Assembly: GCA_902604795.1 (NCBI GenBank)
Contig: CACKZV010000003.1
Location: forward strand, 1-64,000
Reading direction: 5' to 3'
DNA length: 64,000 bases
DNA from: an uncultured Pelagibacteraceae bacterium
GTDB lineage: Bacteria; Pseudomonadota; Alphaproteobacteria; Pelagibacterales; Pelagibacteraceae
Shown piece by piece: positions 34,129 through 38,483 of this stretch. The notes beneath the pieces were generated by a model, which was not told the DNA's origin, searched no databases, and saw only the letters and a program-made list of their open reading frames with translations. The position numbers and the translations under genes are program-made. The stretch's first letter is position 1; every line of letters starts with the position of its first letter.

Positions 34129-34205
34129 TGGTGGGCCCGCCAGGACTCGAACCTGGGACCAATACATTATGAGTGTACTGCTCTAACCAACTGAGCTACA
34201 GGCCC
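34129..34205 (-). tRNA. tRNA with CAU anticodon: tRNA-Ile2 (lysidine) or elongator tRNA-Met
   Basis: 77 nt including encoded CCA. A full cloverleaf can be drawn: acceptor GGGCCTG/CGGGCCC, D stem GCTC/GAGC with GG-containing loop, anticodon stem GTACA/TGTAT with loop CTCATAA, T arm CCAGG-TTCGAGT-CCTGG. The anticodon is CAU. The acceptor has C4-G69 and C5-G68, known determinants for lysidine synthase TilS on tRNA-Ile(CAU), while the elongator Met tRNA of E. coli differs there. I therefore lean to Ile2, but methionine cannot be excluded by eye. It is not an initiator (no run of three G-C pairs in the anticodon stem). Confidence 0.92.
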
Positions 34206-34265: not shown

Positions 34266-34340
34266 TGGTGGGCCGTGTTGGTTACGCTCCAACTACCCCT
34301 GCAATGTCAATGCAGTACTCTACTATTGAGCTAACGGCCC
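34266..34340 (-). tRNA. tRNA-Val(GAC) with atypical D and T loops
   Basis: 75 nt including encoded CCA. Acceptor GGGCCGT/ACGGCCC (7 perfect pairs), anticodon stem CTGCA/TGCAG with loop TTGACAT (anticodon GAC), T stem GTTGG/CCAAC. The T loop reads AGCGTAA where TTCRANY is nearly universal, so T54, T55 and A58 are replaced by A, G and T while C56 and G57 are kept. The D loop (AATAGTA) is short and has A in the place of G18. Stems are intact and discriminator A73 plus A35-C36 fit valine identity, so it is probably functional but should lack the usual m5U54 and pseudouridine 55. It lies three bases beyond the rpoD stop. Confidence 0.9.
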
Positions 34341-34342
34341 TA

Positions 34343-36181
34343 CTAACTTTCTAAGAAACTCTTTAGTTGTTTTGATCTGCTTGGGTGTTTTAATTTTCTA
34401 AGTGCTTTTGCCTCAATTTGCCGAATCCTTTCACGTGTAACAGAAAATTGTAATCCCACCTCTTCTAAAGTATGATCAGTATTCATTCCAACTCCAAACC
34501 TCATCCTTAAGACTCTTTCCTCTCTTGGAGTTAGAGTTGAAAGAATTTTTGTAGTTGCTTCACTTAAATTCGATTTAATTGCTTGTTCGAGGGGTGCTAG
34601 TGCTTTAGTGTCTTCTATAAAATCTCCAAGACTACTATCTTCTTCATCACCAACTGGTTTTTCTAGTGATACAGGTTCTTTTGATATTTTTAAAACTTTT
34701 CTTACTTTTTCAAGTGGCATTCTAAGTTTTTTTGCAAGCTCTTCTGGCGTAGCCTCTCTTCCAAATTCACTCAAGATTAATCTTTGCGTTCTCACAATTT
34801 TATTTATTGTCTCAATCATGTGAACAGGAATCCTAATAGTTCTAGCTTGGTCAGCAATTGACCTTGTTATTGCCTGTCTTATCCACCAAGTTGCATAAGT
34901 TGAAAATTTATAACCTCTTCGATATTCAAATTTATCTACGGCTTTCATTAAACCAATATTTCCCTCTTGTATCAAATCCAAAAACTGTAATCCTCTATTA
35001 GTATATTTTTTAGCTATTGATATTACCAACCTTAGGTTTGCCTCAACCATCTCCTTTTTTGCTATTCTGGACTCTTTTTCACCTTTCTGGATTCTGCTTA
35101 CCATTGACTTATAATCTGTGACTGAAATGCCAAGCTTTTTACTTATATCAATTAGTCTGTCTCTTATATTTTTGAATTCAACTTTATATTTTTGAAAGAA
35201 TTTCTTCCAAACATCATTTGTATCTAAAAAAAGTTTAAGGTTTGGATTAATTTCATTGCCTATATAAAATTTTATAAATTCATCTCTTGAGACTTTTTCA
35301 TTCATTGCAAGTCTCAATAAATTACCCTCTAATGATATTATTTTACGATTTTCAATGTAATGTTTTTGAACTAATTCCTCTAAAACTGAGGGAGACAATT
35401 GTAGGGTTTTTATATTCATTAAAATATCATCAACTATTTTTTTATAGTTTTTTTCCTTCGAAGTTGAAAACTGTTTAGAATTTAGCACACAATCTAACTT
35501 TTCATTTTGATACTTAATAAGCTTATTGTATTCTTTTGTTAAATTATTTATTGTTTGCAAAACTTTAGGTTTAATTTCAGTCTCCATTGCTGCAAGAGTT
35601 GGGTTGAATTCATCATCATCCGAATTGTTTCCTGATTCTTGAACATTTTGATTTTCTTCACTATCGTTTGATTTTTTTTGTTTTGCGCTCTGACCAGTAT
35701 CCTCATCCTCCATATAGTTAGTATCAATATCAATAATTTCTCTCACTAAAATTTCATCATTTTGAAGTTTTATATTCCATTCAAAAAATTGTTGAGCAGT
35801 TATTGGGCTTTGGGAAAGTGCATTTAACATAACATCTTTTCCTGCTTCAATTCTTTTAGCAATTGCAATTTCACCTTCTCTTGATAAAAGTTCGACACCT
35901 CCCATTTCTCTTAGGTACATTCTTATAGGGTCATCACTTTTTTCAATAGACTTTCCCTCTTCTTTTGAACCATTGTCTTTTTTTCGAAGAACTTTAAAGT
36001 CAGCTTTTTTTTCGACTAATATAATTTTTTCATCCAGTATATGTATAAAAGCTTGTTCTAGATTTTCATTTGACAAGTTTCTTTTTCCTAATGATTTATT
36101 TAATTCTTCATAGGTAATAAAACCTCTGTGGACACCACGTCCCATAAGTCTCGCAAATGATTTTGTAATTATACGTTCCAC
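34343..36181 (-). CDS. rpoD: RNA polymerase primary sigma factor RpoD
   Basis: 612 aa from GTG at 36181; an ATG 12 codons in is possible. A short region 1.1 ([16 protein letters not shown], 16-31), region 1.2 ([29 protein letters not shown]), an acidic variable insert (about 150-200), regions 2.1-2.4 ([57 protein letters not shown] in part), region 3, and region 4.2 ([30 protein letters not shown]) are all present. Recognises -35/-10 promoters of housekeeping genes. Downstream of dnaG as in many Alphaproteobacteria, with a 65-base gap; rpsU is not present. Confidence 0.96.
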
Positions 36182-36246
36182 AATAAAAAAGTTCAGAATG
36201 TATATAATGCTAAAATTAAAAAAATCTATGGGATTTTGATTTTTAT

Positions 36247-38022
36247 TTAATTGGTTTTTTGCTGTTTTTTAAGCTCTTTTAACTCATTAAATGTTATTTC
36301 ACTTAAATCTTTTGAAAATTTTGATTCTAATTCTTCAATTCTAACTTCTAGCTCATAATTTTTTAAGTCTCTTATTAATTCAGATAAGATTTCAAGAATT
36401 TTTTGATCATCATTTAGGTTTTTAACTAATATGTGCTTAATAGATGCATACTTTAAAACCCTTTCTATCAAACCCTGGTCAATCTTTAGACTCTCTAAAT
36501 TAGTATTTTCAAAATTGTTTGTTTGATTAATAATTTCTTCAAGGAGTAATTTATTTTCACTGCTAAATAGTTTTACATTTTCTATTAAATTAAAATTCAT
36601 TTTTATAAGATCAGGTTTTTTTAATAAAATATATAGAAATGAAAATTCTTTAATATCAATAGCCGACAAAGACTTTGTTTCATTGTAATAATTCTGAGTT
36701 GATTTGAGTGATTTTGTAAATTTGGAATAATTTTTATTATATATAAAATTCGTATTCGGCGTTAATTCAGATATTTTTTCTAAGAAGAATTCAAGTACAT
36801 ATTTTCTAATGAATTCATCTTTTATTGTTGATGAAATTGCTCTTAATTTTTTTTCAAAAATAGCTCTCGATGAAGGGTTATCATTCATTTGTTTCGAATA
36901 ATGATTAAATATAAATTTATGAATAGGGACAGAATTACTTTTTGAAAAATCTTCAAAAAAATCCTTTCCCTTTTCATTTACAAAACTATCTGGATCGTGT
37001 TTGTCAGGTAAAAACAAAAATGATATTTCTTTTTCAGGCTTTAATTCAATAATAGAATTTTCTGCTGCTCTCAAAGCTGCTTTATATCCACTTTCGTCAC
37101 CATCAAAACAAACAATGATATGTTGAAAAAACTGATTAAGGGTTAATATTTGTCTTGTAGTTAAAGAAGTACCCAAATTTGCAACTACATTTTCCACTTT
37201 ATTTTTACTAAGACCAACTACATCCATATAACCTTCAACGAGAAATATGTTATTAATATTGTTTGACAGTTTTCTTGTAAAATCTAGATTATAAAGATTA
37301 GATCCTTTTTTGAAAAATGGAGTCTCTGGTGAATTAATATATTTAGCAAGGTATTTATTATCTTTTAATATTCTACCTCCAAGAGCTATTGGGTAACCTG
37401 AAATATTATTTATTGGAAAAATTACTCTATCTCTAAACCTGTCTACATATTTTTTTTTATTTTCATCAAAATAAAATAACCCCGTTTCTTTGATTTCACT
37501 TTCAGTAAATTCTTTAAAAATATGTTCTATAAAGTTTTCATCATTTGAAACATACCCAATTTTAAATTTCTTTACTTCCTCAATAGTTAAATTTCTATTT
37601 TTTAAATAATCCTTTGCATCTTTTGCTAAGGGGTTTTTAAAAAGATCTTTATGATAAAATTCAACATACTTTGCATATATTAATTTATACTTGTTCCACT
37701 TTTCTTCTCTGATCTCATCCTGTTTTGAAAATGTATAAGGTCTCATCCCTGCTAAATTTGCTAAATATTTGACTGACTGACCAAATTTAAGATTTTGCGT
37801 TTTCATTACAAAATCAAAAATATTTCCATGCTCTGCAGTACTAAAGCAATGATAAAATTCCTTTTCATCATTTACTGTAAATGATGGTGTTTTTTCAGTC
37901 TTAAATGGTGAAAGGCCAACATATTCCTTTCCTCTCTTTTTTAAACTAACTGTTTTTGAAACTACAGTTGAAATTTTTAATCTAGTTTTTATTTCTTGTA
38001 AGTACTCTTTTGGGTATTTCAT
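36247..38022 (-). CDS. dnaG: DNA primase
   Basis: 591 aa. N-terminal zinc-type domain, toprim core ([25 protein letters not shown] with acidic metal ligands, [10 protein letters not shown]) and a divergent C-terminal helicase-interaction region. Makes RNA primers for replication. The zinc site is degenerate: the usual C-P-F-H is S-P-F-K (38-41) and C-F-G-C is C-F-S-T (59-62), so only Cys59 of four ligands remains. I recall similar SPFN...HCFSS sequences in other alphaproteobacterial primases, so this is probably lineage-wide. Coupled to yqeY by a four-base ATGA overlap. Confidence 0.95.
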
Positions 38023-38483
38023 TTTTGATTTAATAATTCTTTTATAATTGCTCCTGCTTTAGAAAAATCAATACTGTCAGCATTATTTTTCTTTAGTTCA
38101 CCCATAACTTTTCCCATGTCTTTTAATGATTTTGCACCTGTTGATTTAATTACTTCTTCACAAATTTTCTTAGTATCCTCTTCGCTAATTTGTTTAGGTA
38201 AATATTGACTAATTACATTAACTTCTTGTTCTTCTATATCCTGGAGATCCTTACGATTATTTTTTTTATACAATTCAATTGATTCGGATCGTTGTTTAAT
38301 CATTTTTTTTAATAGTTTCTTGATATCCTCATCATCTGTTTCCTTTTTTTCTACCCCAGATCTGTTGTTAATATCTAAATCTTTAATACCGGATAAAATT
38401 AACCTGTAAGTTGATATTTTATTTTTATCTTTAGATTTTAAAGCTGTTTTATAGTCTAACTCTATACTTTCTCTTAATGACAT
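38019..38483 (-). CDS. yqeY: GatB/YqeY-domain protein
   Basis: 154 aa from the ATG at 38483 (MSLRESIELDYKTALKSKDK); the frame continues 27 codons upstream into hydrophobic residues not seen in the family. Helical N-terminal part with the YRLILSGIKDLDI block, basic middle (KKMIKQRSESIELYKKNNR), then EEQEVNVISQYLPKQISEED and GKVMGELKKNNADSIDFSKAGAIIKELL, the tRNA-binding tail shared with GatB. Precise function is unknown in the family; association with tRNA amidation is suggested. Lies before dnaG and diverges from carA. Confidence 0.88.
   Translation of the reverse strand: MSLRESIELDYKTALKSKDKNKISTYRLILSGIKDLDINNRSGVEKKETDDEDIKKLLKKMIKQRSESIELYKKNNRKDLQDIEEQEVNVISQYLPKQISEEDTKKICEEVIKSTGAKSLKDMGKVMGELKKNNADSIDFSKAGAIIKELLNQK

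Follow-up and report, generated by a model that had tools for sequence, protein, structure and literature searches.

The valine tRNA gene with anticodon GAC in this SAR11 genome, tRNA-Val(GAC), most likely encodes a working elongator with an alternative elbow, a reading to which we assign a probability of roughly 0.8 and in which geometry, expression, decoding and modification are inferred. What is directly observed in its letters is that two canonical contacts of the D and T loops have been replaced on both sides, U54-A58 by A54-U58 and G18-U55 by A18-G55, while G19-C56 is unchanged, a mapping that the sequence-only reading of this DNA had proposed and that is right. The window, by which we mean the whole stretch of 64,000 nucleotides analysed here, is the start of a contig (positions 1-64000) from a genome of 1.07 Mb in 29 contigs that is 80% complete. 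The positions of the gene, its loops and its neighbours are listed in Table 1.

Table 1. Features of tRNA-Val(GAC) and its surroundings, in window coordinates.
Feature	Position	Strand	Details	Basis
tRNA-Val(GAC)	34266..34340	(-)	75 nt, CCA encoded	ARAGORN, RF00005 53.6 bits, fold z -3.3
D loop AATAGTA	34321..34327	(-)	A15 34326, A18 34324, G19 34323	sequence
T loop AGCGTAA	34282..34288	(-)	A54 34288, G55 34287, C56 34286, G57 34285, U58 34284, A59 34283, A60 34282	sequence
Variable loop GGGTA	34294..34298	(-)	nt 48 = A	sequence
Anticodon GAC	34306..34308	(-)	reads GUC + GUU	ARAGORN
rpoD (sigma-70)	34343..36268	(-)		Pfam Sigma70 regions 1.1 to 4
dnaG	36250-38058		upstream of rpoD	Pfam DnaG domains
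tRNA-Met(CAT)	34129..34205	(-)	normal loops	ARAGORN; RF00005 72.7 bits

That all stems are intact, as had been claimed from the letters alone, is borne out by ARAGORN, by the Rfam model RF00005 and by the minimum-energy fold, which is a perfect cloverleaf (z -3.3). The acceptor stem has 7 bp, the D stem 4 bp (one of them G-U), and the anticodon and T stems 5 bp each. Valine tRNAs carry their identity elements in the anticodon and in A73; both are present and, together with the whole anticodon loop, are invariant in the eight distinct variant sequences described below. The rpoD stop codon is encoded 2 bases before the start of the tRNA on the same strand, from which we infer that co-transcription with rpoD is likely, and tRNA-Met(CAT) lies 60 nt downstream, again on the same strand. 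RNase P would need to cut the rpoD message at its very end (window 34340-34345).

In the usual tRNA numbering, the D loop reads A14 A15 U16 A18 G19 U20 A21 and the T loop A54 G55 C56 G57 U58 A59 A60. With A18 and G19, the D loop fails the rule of G18 plus G19, and the T loop AGCGTAA fails the TTCRANY consensus at U54, U55 and A58 and keeps C56 and G57; both departures had been reported before and are exact. The canonical elbow contains U54-A58 as a trans Watson-Crick/Hoogsteen pair. tRNA-Val(GAC) shares with that elbow the 7-base T loop, the G53-C61 closure, G19-C56, purine 57 and a purine at 18. It differs, beyond the two pairs replaced on both sides, in two respects on which the sequence-only reading was silent, having A at nucleotide 60, normally a pyrimidine, and A-A at 15-48 in place of the purine-pyrimidine Levitt pair. 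In published work, G18-Psi55, G19-C56 and U54-A58 are called invariant, with tRNA-Pyl named as lacking interloop pairs (PMC6337575); A54 of eukaryotic initiators is a special case (PMC7912444); the elbow is missing in some mitochondrial tRNAs (PMC4810234); and A58, G18, R57, G19 and C56 form one stack, the G19-C56 face being read by many partners (PMC7912444, PMC4810234). Since G19, C56, R57 and a purine at 18 are kept, we infer that the stack and its outer face can persist in tRNA-Val(GAC).

A purine-purine 15-48 contact was considered as a further part of the switch and rejected. It is enriched together with A54-U58 in the background phage tRNAs defined below (15/42 versus 52/1192), and A15-A48 is found in all eight SAR11 valine variant sequences; it is also found in the normal-looped relative G064, which is why we do not count it as part of the swap.

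The same loops, for which the sequence-only reading had wanted relatives to be searched, are directly observed across the genus. BLAST recovered tRNA-Val(GAC) or a relative of it in 82 of 101 same-genus genomes, including all 16 that are at least 90% complete, and the 75-mer is identical over its full length in 69 of the 101, our own genome included. Among the loci examined, the identical 75-mer occurs at 62 loci from 59 genomes, in 45 of which rpoD is 80-83% identical to that of the window (only genomes with more than 600 nt of alignable rpoD entered this comparison, and our own was excluded). Eighteen same-genus places, mostly divergent BLAST matches, were fetched by hand. ARAGORN found a GAC gene in 17 of them, of which 15 have variant loops (14 exactly AATAGTA/AGCGTAA, one AATAGAA/AGCGTAA) and two are normal; G027 offered only a partial match, in which ARAGORN found no tRNA. 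A pattern scan for A18/A54/G55/U58 was positive in 166 of 297 genomes of the order. By hand count, these positives lie in the own genus (163/198), in genus g4 (2/4) and in genus g5 (1/29), and the pattern is absent from g2, g3, g6 and g7 (0/13) and from family f2 (0/53). None of the 297 genomes shows two copies of it. The pattern is missing from 35 own-genus genomes, 14 of which are at least 90% complete; the two of these 14 that were inspected turned out to be a one-base variant (G021) and a normal-looped gene (G036).

Because the loops are conserved in relatives, chance or error can be excluded. Across the eight distinct variant sequences, the D loop is AATAGTA in six, AATAGAA in one and AAAAGTA in one, with A18 and G19 in all eight, and the T loop is AGCGTAA in seven and AGCGTTA in one. 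Relatives whose acceptor, anticodon and T stems differ keep the loops, the changes amounting to one base in G021 and one per loop in G251. All 168 stem cells of the eight sequences are standard pairs, and 12 of the 21 stem pairs have changed on both sides, a number that none of 500 shuffles reached (the test covered eight of nine distinct variant sequences; L128 was left out). A pseudogene or an assembly error would fit the low covariance score, 53.6 bits against 72.7 for the neighbouring tRNA-Met; the score, which had been proposed as a check, nevertheless exceeds the RF00005 cut-off of 29. The identical 75-mers come from separately assembled genomes, the stems are compensated, and the uncompensated changes by which a pseudogene would be recognised are not seen. 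We consider this explanation refuted, with next to no chance left to it.

Two same-genus relatives have normal loops, which indicates that the swap, or the reverse change, occurred in situ. In G064 (loops AATGGTA/TTCGATC) the gene stands directly beside rpoD, and in G036 (loops ATCGGTTA/TTCGATT) rpoD is 255 nt away. An rpoD tree, which took in the 55 of 79 loci with enough rpoD, nests both normal-loop rows in weak branches, and 500 of 500 shuffles do likewise, so that it lends no weight to either direction of change. The gene is not always adjacent to rpoD, as 20 of the 79 own-genus and g4 loci have no rpoD within the examined stretch. Among own-genus loci, L032, L035-L039 and L134 have a variant gene and no rpoD in the examined stretch, several of them lying close to tRNA-Leu(UAA); in these genomes the variant gene has probably been relocated. 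The tRNA-Val of the g4 genome G193 (L115 388-462) is identical to that at the own-genus loci L040 and L041 and adjoins an initiator-like tRNA-Met, not rpoD, and transfer between genera is possible.

A second, normal GAC gene, which had been named as a potential objection, was not found in the complete relative G011, whose 32 tRNA matches include one GAC gene, with variant loops, and a separate tRNA-Val(UAC) with normal loops. Our own 80%-complete genome, with 23 tRNA matches, yielded no other GAC gene and no UAC gene. In 44 long open stretches of the window, GUU and GUC make up 551 of 941 valine codons, and GUU is the commonest (486/941). These counts bear on the idea of a specialised tRNA that acts outside translation, like the staphylococcal peptidoglycan tRNA-Gly, whose elbow nucleotides are altered. 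An altered nucleotide 18 and T loop would suit such a role, and the normal tRNA-Val(UAC) of G011 could in principle read all valine codons. We nonetheless hold it very unlikely. The gene is the sole GAC tRNA of a complete genome and therefore not the redundant same-anticodon copy expected of the peptidoglycan type, its anticodon would read GUU, the commonest valine codon, and its anticodon loop and A73 are invariant; unlike the staphylococcal tRNA-Gly, it belongs to the decoding set. Such loops also recur on His, Phe, Ile and CAU tRNAs, and are thus tied to no one amino acid. The earlier suggestion that the coordinated change marks a functional elbow variant gains support from the relatives, from the single copy and from the covariation reported below, with expression remaining an inference.

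Recurrence of the swaps on other tRNAs is likewise a direct observation. The exact combination of D arm and T loop is present on seven viral contigs, on six of which ARAGORN reports a tRNA (none on L108): Val-UAC on L107, L111, L112 and L113, and CAU on L109 and L110. L109 is Acinetobacter phage Ac42 (HM032710.1, 80657-80731, annotated as tRNA-Met). Its D and T loops, AATAGTA/AGCGTAA, are identical to those of tRNA-Val(GAC), whereas its anticodon is CAU, its stems are different and its variable loop is AGGAT. Outside SAR11, a scan with one D-stem form over contigs of 84,980 species returned 11 stretches with the double swap: in seven CPR-named genomes it sits on a His tRNA, in three more on a Phe tRNA, and in an Obscuribacterales genome on a tRNA-Val(GAC).

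The phage tRNA-Val(UAC) shares both loops and the variable loop GGGTA with the window gene, as would be expected if the latter were the horizontal gift of a phage. In its simple form this proposal is refuted by a comparison of the bodies outside the loops, and we find it scarcely credible. Of 57 positions, the CPR and phage Val-UAC bodies share 24-35 with the window gene and the phage Val-UAC bodies alone 32-35, near the mean of 29.8/57 for normal-loop tRNAs of the same architecture (n=131), whereas G064 reaches 51/57; in addition, blastn found no match to the window gene among 50,697 phage records. Since the CPR and phage bodies are roughly as close as those of normal-loop tRNAs, the loops probably arose repeatedly. 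The Obscuribacterales valine gene matches at 44/57, which is as expected of a GAC isoacceptor. The comparison was confined to tRNAs of 71-column architecture and hence did not include the phage CAU genes.

All four combinations of the two pairs exist in nature: the standard U54-A58/G18-U55, U54-A58/A18-G55 (SAR11 Phe and Thr, CPR Gly), A54-U58/G18-U55 (phage Ile and others), and both swapped, as in the tRNA-Val(GAC) of the window. For SAR11 tRNA-Phe, 48 of 59 genomes were matched, and 30 of the 48 matches were read. Of these 30 loci, 23, on three stem backgrounds, combine A18-G55 with a normal U54-A58, and the other seven, our own genome among them, have normal loops; the ratio is biased because the query was a variant gene. 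tRNA-Thr(GGU) carries A18-G55 in all five matching genomes out of 59. The T loops of these tRNA-Phe (L093 1498-1572(-), L556-L578) and tRNA-Thr(GGU) genes (L103 182-256, L586-L590) are TGCGAAT and TGCAAGT, and both tRNAs are normal-looped in our own genome. The combination of G18 and G55 with U54-A58 was found in none of 148 genomes of the order, scanned with one D-stem form.

Phage tRNAs provided the numbers for a covariation analysis. Of 2,815 distinct sequences, 2,729 were kept, the conditions being a 7-base T loop, C56, a purine at 57 and a D loop of at least 6 bases. The background consisted of the 2,198 tRNAs on scanned viral contigs with any other D arm, those with a D arm fitting the scanned patterns being excluded against selection bias. 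For 18-55, this background holds 29 A18G55, 4 A18U55, 0 G18G55 and 1054 G18U55 (1,087 rows used; nucleotide 18 could not be assigned by rule in 1,096, and 15 had other letters), and for 54-58 it holds 81 A54U58, 30 A54A58, 1 U54U58 and 2064 U54A58 (2,176 rows used, 22 with other letters). Judged by eye, AG is present in most D loops of the 41 G55 rows with nucleotide 18 unassigned, and GG in few. In this background, 16 tRNA types include cases of A18-G55, and at least 25 include cases of A54-U58. The p-values of the two tables, 5e-53 and 1e-120, overstate the number of events, as the rows are related to each other. U60 accompanies A54 in 0 of 111 cases and U54 in 1789 of 2065, and we infer that A54 avoids U60 because an A54-U60 pair would extend the T stem. 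Judged by these co-occurrences in sequence, both swaps are true covarying pairs.

Scans of viral contigs point to the limits of both pairing rules. With one D-stem form, they gave at least 67 ARAGORN-confirmed distinct tRNAs with A18 and G55 and 18 with A18 and U55, and in the 20 stretches matched for G18 and G55, ARAGORN confirmed no more than 2 distinct tRNAs. Over 408 viral loci, there were at least 119 confirmed distinct tRNAs with A54 and U58 and at least 72 with A54 and A58, and the scan for U54 and U58 gave 8 stretches with 3 ARAGORN tRNAs. Neither rule is strict, since the A18-U55 and A54-A58 tRNAs exist; the latter are another 54-58 solution and count against a two-state rule. The A54-U58 T loops ATCGTTC, ATCGTTA and ATCGTGA are frequent in phage tRNAs (e.g. 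L317-L395), and among the matches listed, Ile(GAU) accounts for 41/119 and Asn(GUU) for 24/119 of the A54-U58 tRNAs. A54-A58 with a purine at 60 is frequent in phage tRNA-Asn, with 42/72 among the matches listed.

That the same loops occur in phage tRNA clusters, including that of an isolate, Ac42, could also mean that they let a tRNA be missed by a phage or host nuclease or modifier recognising G18, T54 or Psi55. We regard such an escape as unlikely, given that most tRNAs of the same viral contigs are normal (2064/2198 with U54-A58), that none of the 31 tRNAs found by ARAGORN in the T5 and T4 stretches has an A54 or G55 T loop, and that the nuclease itself is hypothetical.

Zagryadskaya, Doyon and Steinberg reportedly selected suppressor tRNAs from randomised D and T loops in 2003 and found U54-G58 and G54-A58 to be functional; A54-U58 is said not to have been among the selected replacements. 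Those suppressors resemble tRNA-Val(GAC) in that pairs other than U54-A58 work, and the pair in tRNA-Val(GAC) differs from theirs in being natural and conserved.

In the working elongator that we favour, the single-copy tRNA-Val for GUU and GUC would probably be transcribed with rpoD and then cut from that transcript. A54-U58 would take the place of U54-A58 inside the T loop, and A18-G55 that of G18-Psi55 between the loops, with G19-C56 staying on top, so that the outer face presented to the L1 stalk of the ribosome and to RNase P would be unchanged. The A at nucleotide 60 would avoid an A54-U60 Watson-Crick pair, which would shrink the T loop. In SAR11 and CPR, the swaps were probably eased by the loss of the Psi55 synthase TruB, as Psi55 would otherwise pin position 55; a causal role of this loss is inferred.

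The absence of an m5U54 or pseudouridine-55 target from tRNA-Val(GAC), claimed earlier, holds, neither U54 nor U55 being encoded. The minimal TruB substrate is 53-GUUYRANYC-61 (PMC7912444), and tRNA-Val(GAC), with 53-GAGCGUAAC-61, does not meet its letters U54, U55 and A58. The distribution of TruB itself was observed directly. With TIGR00431, it was found in none of seven own-genus genomes, of which five are single-contig, and in 14 of 14 controls, 10 of which were over the cut-off; with PF01509, it was found in 19 of 148 genomes of the order and again in 14 of 14 controls. Split by genus, a count made by hand on the assumption that the 148 genomes are the sample of the G18 and G55 scan, PF01509 did not find TruB in the own genus (0/113), g5 (0/13) or g6 (0/2) and found it in 8/8 genomes of g2-g4 and in 11/12 of family f2. 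The incompleteness of our own genome bears on its missing TruB. In sister genera the gene order is infB-rbfA-truB-rpsO-pnp, as read from ORF sizes; an empty truB site was not located, as infB, rbfA, rpsO and pnp were not found in the own-genus DNA examined. The loss was perhaps a single event inside the SAR11 family, for which no tree was made. As TruB was found nowhere in the genus, tRNA-Val(GAC) is probably not alone in lacking Psi55.

Among carriers of the double swap elsewhere, TruB was found in 0 of 10 CPR genomes, compared with 125 of 192 in the CPR sample (Fisher p 4e-5), and it is present in the Obscuribacterales genome. The CPR carriers may represent only about two lineages, so that Fisher values overstate their independence, and they are drafts of 0.3-1.4 Mb of unknown completeness, in which a missing TruB may partly be missing sequence. 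Loss of TruB is not necessary for the variant, since the g4 genomes G193 and G251 and the Obscuribacterales genome carry both, and it is not sufficient, since g5 lacks a detectable TruB and yet has the variant in a single genome. It is at most permissive for the swap. TruB has also been lost in M. genitalium, M. pneumoniae and hemoplasmas (PMC4014445); these mollicutes are similar in having reduced genomes without TruB, and a changed 18-55 pair is not mentioned in the part of that source available to us.

These observations also leave room for neutral compensatory drift, in which, with TruB gone, 18-55 wandered through nearly neutral intermediates to an equivalent alternative without functional effect. 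We give this account a little less than an even chance. It is consistent with the absence of a detected TruB from the genus and the CPR carriers, with the 18 distinct A18-U55 phage tRNAs as possible intermediates, and with the 18-55 swap having also been made on SAR11 Phe and Thr. It sits poorly with the way in which the variant was held once made, as seen in the many identical 75-mers and in the mere two normal genes among the 17 fetched by hand, and with the three TruB-bearing genomes that carry the variant. For the alternative elbow as a whole, a broader formulation, which we consider an even bet, is that it is a second general elbow solution, made of two exchangeable modules, a G19-C56 cap and no U60 beside A54, which arose on many occasions in phages, CPR and SAR11 and was opened in cells by TruB loss. 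If this is true, a 'universal' tRNA contact is evolvable after loss of its modification enzyme.

We found no literature on A18-G55, on SAR11 or phage T-loop variants or on G18 covariation, and none relevant by title on truB in Pelagibacter or on SAR11 tRNA modification, as far as the searchable portions of these sources extend; the main text of a paper on SAR11 tRNA signatures (PMC3937112) does not mention the D-loop, T-loop, G18, tRNA-Val or elbow. An earlier notice of A18-G55 or A54-U58 is not excluded, since subscription literature lay mostly outside the search. Programs that find tRNAs, designed tRNAs and models of the elbow all incorporate G18-Psi55 and U54-A58. A natural, conserved and recurrent replacement, in a probably very abundant ocean group, shows what the elbow really requires, which would be G19-C56, the 53-61 pair, a purine at 18 and no Watson-Crick 54-60 pair. 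G064 and the window gene form a ready natural pair for testing the role of Psi55, the partial link to TruB lets comparative genomics test the reasons for the wide distribution of Psi55, and the presence of the same variants in phage tRNA clusters has a bearing on phage translation. A further departure at position 55 was seen in CPR, where L146 and L147, for which TruB was not found, have the C55 T loops TCCGAAT and TCCGATT together with G18.
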